From positions 1 through 35,576 of the forward strand of contig JAMPXV010000006.1 of NCBI GenBank assembly GCA_023700985.1: a DNA stretch of 35,576 nt. Reading direction: 5' to 3'. This DNA comes from Lysobacter sp. (GTDB lineage Bacteria > Pseudomonadota > Gammaproteobacteria > Burkholderiales > Usitatibacteraceae). Each line of letters starts with the position of its first letter. The first letter of the stretch is position 1. Positions 2,598 to 21,472 of the stretch are shown piece by piece. The notes under the pieces were generated by a model. It saw only the letters and a list, made by a program, of their open reading frames with translations. It was not told the DNA's origin and did not search any database. The position numbers were made by a program, and so were the translations under genes.

Positions 2598-4240
<1,643 letters not shown>

Positions 4241-4308
4241 TTAGCATGGCAGCCGACTCTGATCGCTTGAAGGGTGACTCCTTCCCCGCTTCTCCTCCCT
4301 GAGCGGGC

Positions 4309-4334
4309 GCCTTAATTCCCATTAAGGCTTTTTT
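4309..4334 (+). terminator. Intrinsic terminator, plus-strand orientation
   Basis: GCCTTAAT (4309-4316), TCCC loop, ATTAAGGC (4321-4328), followed by TTTTTT (4329-4334): perfect 8-bp stem, 4-nt loop, U6. Confidence 0.75.
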
Positions 4335-4369
4335 GCCCCGGCCTTATTCCCCTTTTGCCGGGGCTTTTT
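4335..4369 (+). terminator. Second tandem intrinsic terminator, plus-strand orientation
   Basis: GCCCCGGC (4335-4342) and GCCGGGGC (4357-4364) followed by TTTTT (4365-4369). It spans the engB stop codon. Confidence 0.65.
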
Positions 4370-4964
4370 GTTTGTGCGCCGCCACCCAGGCCTCTATGCA
4401 GGCCTGTGCCTCCACCGTGCCGGTGCGCTTGAGGCTCGAGAAGAGCTGCGCCGTGGCCCCGGGATAGACCTGCGCGAGGTCCTTGCGGGCCTGGGCCAGG
4501 GTGCGCTGTGCCGCCTGTGCCGAGAGCTTGTCGGACTTGGAGAGCAGCACGTGGACCTGCCGCCCGGAGGGCAGCAGCCAGTCGAGCAGGCGCCGGTCCT
4601 GGGGCGTCAGCGGATGGCGGGAGTCCATCACGATCACGACGCCGGCCAGCGCACGGCGATGGAACACGTACTCCCCCACGAGCGTGTCCCAGTGCCGCCG
4701 CACCGCGAGAGGGACCCCCGCGTAGCCGTACCCGGGCAGGTCGACGAGGAAAGCGTCCTCGTCCACGGCGAAGAAGTTGATGAGCTGGGTCCGCCCGGGC
4801 GTCTTGCTCACGAAGGCGAGGCGGCGGCGGCCCGCCAGCGTGTTCAGCGCGCTGGACTTCCCGGCATTGGAGCGGCCGATGAACGCGATCTCGGGGAGCG
4901 TATCGCCGGGCAGCAGCTTCGGGTCGTGGACGGAGAGGTGGTAGCGGGCGTTCTCGATGCGCAT
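4344..4964 (-). CDS. engB: Ribosome biogenesis GTP-binding protein EngB/YihA/YsxC
   Basis: G1 motif GRSNAGKSS, VSKTPGRTQLINFF, DLPGYGYAGV, LLSKSDKLS. MRIENARYH start chosen at 4964; the ORF is open to 5015. Confidence 0.92.
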   Translation of the reverse strand: MRIENARYHLSVHDPKLLPGDTLPEIAFIGRSNAGKSSALNTLAGRRRLAFVSKTPGRTQLINFFAVDEDAFLVDLPGYGYAGVPLAVRRHWDTLVGEYVFHRRALAGVVIVMDSRHPLTPQDRRLLDWLLPSGRQVHVLLSKSDKLSAQAAQRTLAQARKDLAQVYPGATAQLFSSLKRTGTVEAQACIEAWVAAHKQKAPAKGE

Positions 4965-19373: not shown

Positions 19374-21408
<2,035 letters not shown>

Positions 21409-21472
21409 TCGGACTGCAAACGCTACCGGAACGCGGGTGGCGGCGCAAATGTCATCGGGCAAAGGCCGCGGG

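Follow-up and report, generated by a model that had tools for sequence, protein, structure and literature searches.

An anti-hemB small RNA with a sigma-E-type promoter motif between hemB and engB in a Lysobacter sp. genome, and its possible kinship with ErsA and sX13

The hemB-engB intergenic region and the anti-hemB RNA

The window analyzed here, that is, the entire 35,576-base stretch of Lysobacter sp. DNA, contains on its minus strand the porphobilinogen synthase gene hemB (3200-4210; NF006762, 501 bits) and the gene for the YihA GTPase, engB/ysxC (4344-4964; TIGR03598, 213.7 bits), so that the gene names given in the original prediction are correct. The two perfect 8-bp stems that it described on the plus strand, with tracts of six and five U, respectively, were also confirmed: stem H2 (GCCTTAAT/ATTAAGGC, 4309-4316/4321-4328) is followed by T6 at 4329-4334, and stem H3 (GCCCCGGC/GCCGGGGC, 4335-4342/4357-4364) by T5 at 4365-4369, with no T after either stem on the minus strand, as had been stated. 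A search of both strands of the whole window for perfect 8-bp stems with loops of 3-15 bases, directly followed by at least five T, returned exactly these two, and none of 100 dinucleotide-preserving shuffles of the window yielded a perfect 8-bp stem with a T-run. H3 overlaps the 3' end of engB, with the engB stop codon (4344-4346) located inside its loop. Judged by sequence, both H2+U6 and H3+U5 combine a GC-containing stem with a U-tract, the usual hallmark of an intrinsic terminator. Elsewhere, the window contains a TPP riboswitch (21320-21414, minus strand; RF00059, 62.8 bits, above the Rfam gathering score).

In a cmscan search against Rfam 15, the anti-hemB model RF02837 matched positions 4283-4372 of the plus strand over its full length (1-81 of 81) with 77.3 bits and an E-value of 1.2e-16, well over the gathering score of 49.5 bits. 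The locus thus encodes a new member of the known anti-hemB family, and the two stems are hairpins 2 and 3, in the 3' half of this sRNA, rather than stand-alone tandem terminators. Among the sources considered earlier for a plus-strand transcript ending here, an sRNA arising in the hemB-engB gap is the one that this match bears out. The description as tandem terminators holds in part: H3 with its U5 tract is likely to be an intrinsic terminator, but H2, which covaries, forms part of the RNA body, and the U-run behind it differs among relatives. Similarly, the stems are real but make up only a part of the object, the two hairpins upstream and the promoter having been overlooked.

The predicted full-length RNA extends from 4268 to 4369 on the plus strand (~102 nt), its start being placed from the position of the -10 element and the base of the first hairpin, and its end from H3 and the U5 tract; it folds at -42.5 kcal/mol (z -4.8). 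The 5' hairpin H0 (GAAGGG/UCCUUC, 4269-4284) lies outside the Rfam model; hairpins of its strength occupy the same spot in 86% of the loci of the beta group and 83% of the other gammaproteobacterial loci vs 7-9% of shuffles. H1 (CCCGCU/AGCGGG, 4285-4307, with arms at 4285-4290/4302-4307 in the RF02837 alignment) has the C-rich loop UCUCCUCCCUG (4291-4301), a mimic of the anti-Shine-Dalgarno sequence and the probable main seed. H2 with its U6 tract (4309-4334) and H3 with its U5 tract (4335-4369), the latter with CCCCUUU in the loop, each vary on both sides at all 8 pairs among relatives. The RNA is encoded opposite hemB and engB, between the two genes, divergent from hemB and convergent with engB; its complementarity is limited to the last ~26 bases of engB and to either the hemB leader or a readthrough transcript from engB into hemB.

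Members of this family are known from Burkholderia. In B. cenocepacia, anti-hemB corresponds to ncS04, a 105-nt RNA with a 3' end mapped by RACE and dRNA-Seq, which binds Hfq and showed no significant change across the seven conditions tested (PMC5688073). According to the material cited in a review, Bc7 of the same species was found by co-purification with Hfq, hemB was predicted as its mRNA target, and RybB was proposed as a homologue (PMC6321483). Anti-hemB also appears in B. pseudomallei (PMC3521395).

The sigma-E-type promoter motif

Upstream of the RNA, a -35 element of the sigma-E (RpoE/ECF) type, GGAACTT (4235-4241, plus strand), is followed after a 16-nt spacer by a predicted -10 element, TCTGA (4258-4262), and this arrangement matches the consensus of E. 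coli RpoE in both sequence and spacing. The pattern GGAACTT-N15..17-TCNNA has a single match on both strands of the window, at 4235-4262. From this position, transcription is predicted to begin around 4268, at the base of H0. This start is placed 58 bp ahead of the start codon of hemB and points away from that gene, so the suggestion of an antisense RNA over the hemB coding region is rejected; readthrough from the mrcA operon (mrcA-yjgA), also proposed originally, was likewise rejected, being unnecessary as a source given the dedicated promoter directly upstream.

The pattern GGAACTT-N16-TCTNA precedes the RNA in nearly all loci of the beta group. The sigma-E-type motif was found at a fixed distance in 45 of 49 beta loci and 48 of 60 other gammaproteobacterial loci vs 0.4-0.5% of shuffles, a count with which free-position motif scoring against dinucleotide shuffles agrees; among the named loci, it is present in Azoarcus, Aromatoleum, Dechloromonas, Propionivibrio, Nitrosospira, Methylovorus and several Gammaproteobacteria. 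Instead of this motif, the loci of Burkholderia, Paraburkholderia, Caballeronia and Pandoraea contain TGGTATATCAT/TGGTATATGAT, and most of those in Comamonadaceae have a TTGAAA...TTTGTTAAATT arrangement in its place. Read by eye, these upstream regions appear to be housekeeping (sigma-70-like) promoters, in two different forms, one in Burkholderia and its relatives (L203, L205, L215, L222, L225, L233) and the other in Comamonadaceae (for example L211 and L217). The ancestral control may be missing from the very species used to study anti-hemB.

An RpoE protein is encoded in the genome that contains the window (TIGR02939, 328 bits), and we infer from the motif that RpoE drives the anti-hemB sRNA in the source organism. 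Conceivably, the anti-hemB sRNA is genuine but the motif in front of it is no sigma-E promoter, transcription being the task of another ECF or a housekeeping sigma factor: the same genome encodes six further proteins with sub-cutoff matches to the sigma-70 family, and the replacements in Burkholderia and Comamonadaceae look sigma-70-like. We consider this unlikely, given the fit of GGAACTT-N16-TCTGA to the sigma-E consensus and the transcription of the related sRNA ErsA by sigma-22, the RpoE homologue of Pseudomonas (PMC5819304).

Conservation and predicted mode of action

Anti-hemB scored over the cutoff in 48 of the 61 sampled relatives. When 50 loci of the beta group were read, engB was convergent with the RNA and hemB divergent from it in 39; in five others, there is no hemB, and the RNA follows engB on the same strand, and in three, neither gene is found beside the RNA. 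Among 49 distinct sequences, 19 of the 22 pairs showed changes on both sides, with 98.7% of the cells paired, which was matched by none of 500 shuffles, although the fitting of the structural alignment to the model biases the pair counts in its favour and makes them supportive rather than independent. The loop of H1 is near-invariant across homologues (CUCCCUGA): its CTCCCTGA portion is found in 48 of 50 beta and 33 of 60 gamma homologues, and CTCCC in 49 of 50 and 57 of 60, respectively. The CCCCTTT of the H3 loop is largely kept among the beta homologues in the MAFFT alignment A1. A MAFFT alignment of 44 beta RNAs combined with an RNAalifold structure smeared H2, and the model derived from it (R1) was not used; the beta-only covariance model employed below (R2) was built with a hand-derived structure, and its E-values are rough. 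Variable stems combined with near-constant loops are what would be expected of a trans-acting seed rather than of a mere terminator.

The survey also yielded several observations on individual lineages. In several of them (L170-L174, L132, L143, L149), the orientation of the sRNA to engB is inverted, with the seed and mostly the promoter kept, and at three of the inverted loci its orientation to polA is inverted as well. Six Comamonadaceae loci (L193, L208, L211, L212, L217, L250) share a distinct conserved H2 region, GUGUGACAGCAAA; elsewhere, the H2 loop is variable. One genome from the same genus as the window (G005, 98% complete) gave a weak anti-hemB match of 26.2 bits, and the RNA may have been lost there or be hidden by a contig break; a seed 12-mer occurs in this genome outside any anti-hemB RNA (G005:C67:1140-1151). 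In the genome of the window itself, there are two sub-threshold anti-hemB matches, G000:C207:7354-7433 (minus strand, 27.8 bits) and G000:C32:20424-20499 (plus strand, 26.1 bits), possibly chance matches or paralogous C-rich sRNAs.

Taking the motif, the fold and the conserved loops together, we regard it as highly probable that the locus encodes a dedicated RF02837 sRNA of ~102 nt, transcribed from the sigma-E-type promoter at 4235-4262 up to position 4369 and acting in trans as an Hfq-dependent repressor under envelope stress. In this scheme, envelope stress would free RpoE, which would transcribe the sRNA from the plus strand; transcription would stop at the engB 3' end, after H3 and its U5 tract (4369); Hfq would bind the U-tract of the sRNA; and the C-rich loops (CUCCUCCCU in H1, CCCCUUU in H3) would pair with target mRNAs at their G-rich ribosome-binding regions, causing repression. 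Both the trans action and the repression are features that we infer from these sequences. The unchanged level of ncS04 in B. cenocepacia speaks against this scheme, although the sigma-E-type motif has been lost from Burkholderia loci. The pattern CAGGGAGG-N-ATG occurs at 12 places in the genome of the window vs 3 for the reversed control, with the caveat that G-richness is a general property of ribosome-binding sites. The best seed match places 12 nt with perfect complementarity to the H1 loop region in the ribosome-binding site of a Crp/Fnr-like gene (G000:C210:7698-7709; L316/L349); this match was not found in the relatives, so that these searches support no target.

The name of the family suggests a different role, that of a cis-antisense regulator of hemB or of the engB-hemB transcript, acting through pairing or transcriptional interference. 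The geometry fits this role: the RNA and the two genes are on opposite strands, and the RNA covers the leader region of hemB and the final bases of engB. The target prediction for Bc7 points the same way. However, the RNA and its seed, mostly together with the promoter, are kept in the five beta loci where no hemB adjoins and the orientation of engB is reversed, and the RNA is also conserved where neither gene is present; outside the beta group, it is adjoined by polA and not by hemB. The conservation of the RNA therefore does not follow that of a hemB antisense, and conserved loops would not be expected in a perfectly complementary cis-antisense RNA. This argues against hemB antisense regulation as the main job of the RNA, a reading that we consider improbable, although an additional antisense action on hemB is possible; the name "anti-hemB" probably misleads. 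Least plausible is that the stems serve no functional RNA and simply halt plus-strand readthrough from mrcA-yjgA or keep convergent transcription units apart: two good stems with U-tracts do lie in the right orientation, convergent with engB, but upstream of them lie H0, H1 and a dedicated promoter, the loop sequences are conserved, the hairpin unit recurs at loci without mrcA-yjgA and, in Salinisphaera, as a tandem array in which every copy has a promoter to itself, and in Burkholderia the homologue has been mapped as a small transcript (PMC5688073).

Distribution at the polA-engB locus and relation to known sRNAs

Outside the beta order, a search of 184 genomes of the class with RF02837 produced 11 matches above the cutoff and many sub-threshold ones; the whole-genome searches were run with strict filters, which lose weak matches. 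From the non-beta matches, 60 loci were picked by score alone, and 51 of these are located within 1 kb of engB or polA, a placement for which well below 1% would be expected by chance. The RNA lies downstream of polA, in the same direction, and faces a convergent engB in 26 of the 60 loci; another 13 have the convergent engB, nine have polA upstream, and in three, the RNA is inverted between both genes. In these bacteria, the neighbour of the sRNA is polA, not hemB. The R2 model recovers nearly all of the non-beta RNAs, bearing in mind that the loci had been preselected by the related Rfam model. Schmidtke et al. raised the question whether the polA loci of other bacteria encode sRNAs too (PMC3771888); the present data indicate that they do, in many lineages.

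Some of these loci contain more than one copy. Arrays of three or four tandem anti-hemB-like RNAs lie between polA and engB at L141 (G213:C33:13148-13886), in Salinisphaera shabanensis (L194) and at L235, and at two named array loci, all three copies are individually preceded by a sigma-E-type promoter. Two anti-hemB-like copies are present in Nitrosospira briensis (L267) and in the genomes G193, G191, G150 and G059.

The closest known relatives of the RNA in the window are the anti-hemB RNAs described as Bc7, ncS04 or Burkholderia RNA 7, with which it has in common the sequence, the three-hairpin architecture, the C-rich H1 loop and the position between hemB and engB. It differs from those of Burkholderia, Paraburkholderia and Pandoraea in having the sigma-E-type promoter in place of the sigma-70-like TGGTATATCAT, and from the Rfam model in having H0. 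Neither the sigma-E-type promoter, nor H0, nor the spread of RNAs of this family at polA-engB, nor hits of the ErsA and sX13 models on some of its RNAs, nor a link to ErsA was found in the literature searched, which covered few subscription journals.

Several other sRNAs resemble it in position or composition. Spot 42 of E. coli (RF00021) occupies the same position between polA and a convergent engB, but agrees in position only: the beta model gives spf 10.3 bits, no Spot 42 match was found on the window or in the 184 genomes of the class sample, and it was rejected as a homologue. The Betaproteobacteria toxic small RNA family RF02278 (ncS27, bdhR1, S17) shares a first hairpin with a C/U-rich anti-Shine-Dalgarno loop, a terminator hairpin after it and the same predicted mode of action, but it consists of two hairpins only and reaches 19.1 bits on the window vs a cutoff of 50.

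ErsA of Pseudomonas (Pseudomon-1, RF01719) lies between polA and engB (PMC8575079). It represses algC by pairing at the ribosome-binding site, as shown elsewhere. Like the RNA in the window, it adjoins the 3' end of engB and is C/U-rich with hairpins. ErsA depends on Hfq and is transcribed by an RpoE homologue, features that are predicted for the RNA in the window, where a conserved sigma-E-type promoter sequence is present; the window shares the engB side of the ErsA arrangement, with hemB in the place of polA. The Rfam covariance-model search gave no RF01719 match on the window RNA, and the ErsA locus scores weakly with the beta model (12.9 bits). Outside Pseudomonas, RF01719 produced seven sub-threshold hits, five of them on the coordinates of anti-hemB hits (G213, G110, G187, G199, G124) and a sixth 3' of engB (G087).

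The sX13 RNA of Xanthomonadaceae (RF02232) likewise has C-rich apical loops and belongs to the polA locus, on the polA side, and is reported to be Hfq-independent (PMC3771888). Unlike the RNA in the window, it lacks the sigma-E-type motif in the two loci examined and does not neighbor engB there; RF02232 reaches 21.9 bits on the window, below its 50-bit cutoff, and sX13 scores weakly with the beta model as well (14.0-15.7 bits). The sX13 and anti-hemB models nevertheless share RNA copies in G213, G131 and G180, and copies in the L141 array score 41.8 bits with the anti-hemB model, 37.1 bits with the ErsA model and 48.3 bits with the sX13 model.

Given the weak direct similarity between the extremes, the case for homology rests on the intermediates, together with position and promoter. 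We consider it good for ErsA, suggesting that anti-hemB is the betaproteobacterial cousin of this Pseudomonas stress RNA, and fair for sX13, which is graded lower for want of the promoter motif and the engB neighbor in the loci examined. Overall, we lean towards the view that anti-hemB, ErsA and sX13 are branches of one ancient polA-engB sRNA of Gammaproteobacteria (including the beta group), ancestrally driven by sigma-E, with polA giving way to hemB in the beta group and housekeeping-type promoters arising in Burkholderia and Comamonadaceae. If sigma-E control is ancestral and ErsA homologous, anti-hemB would be a candidate envelope-stress sRNA of Betaproteobacteria that can be put to the test, and its targets could be sought with the help of findings on ErsA and sX13; three Rfam families would then form a single clan, and many unannotated RNAs at the 3' ends of engB genes would be explained.
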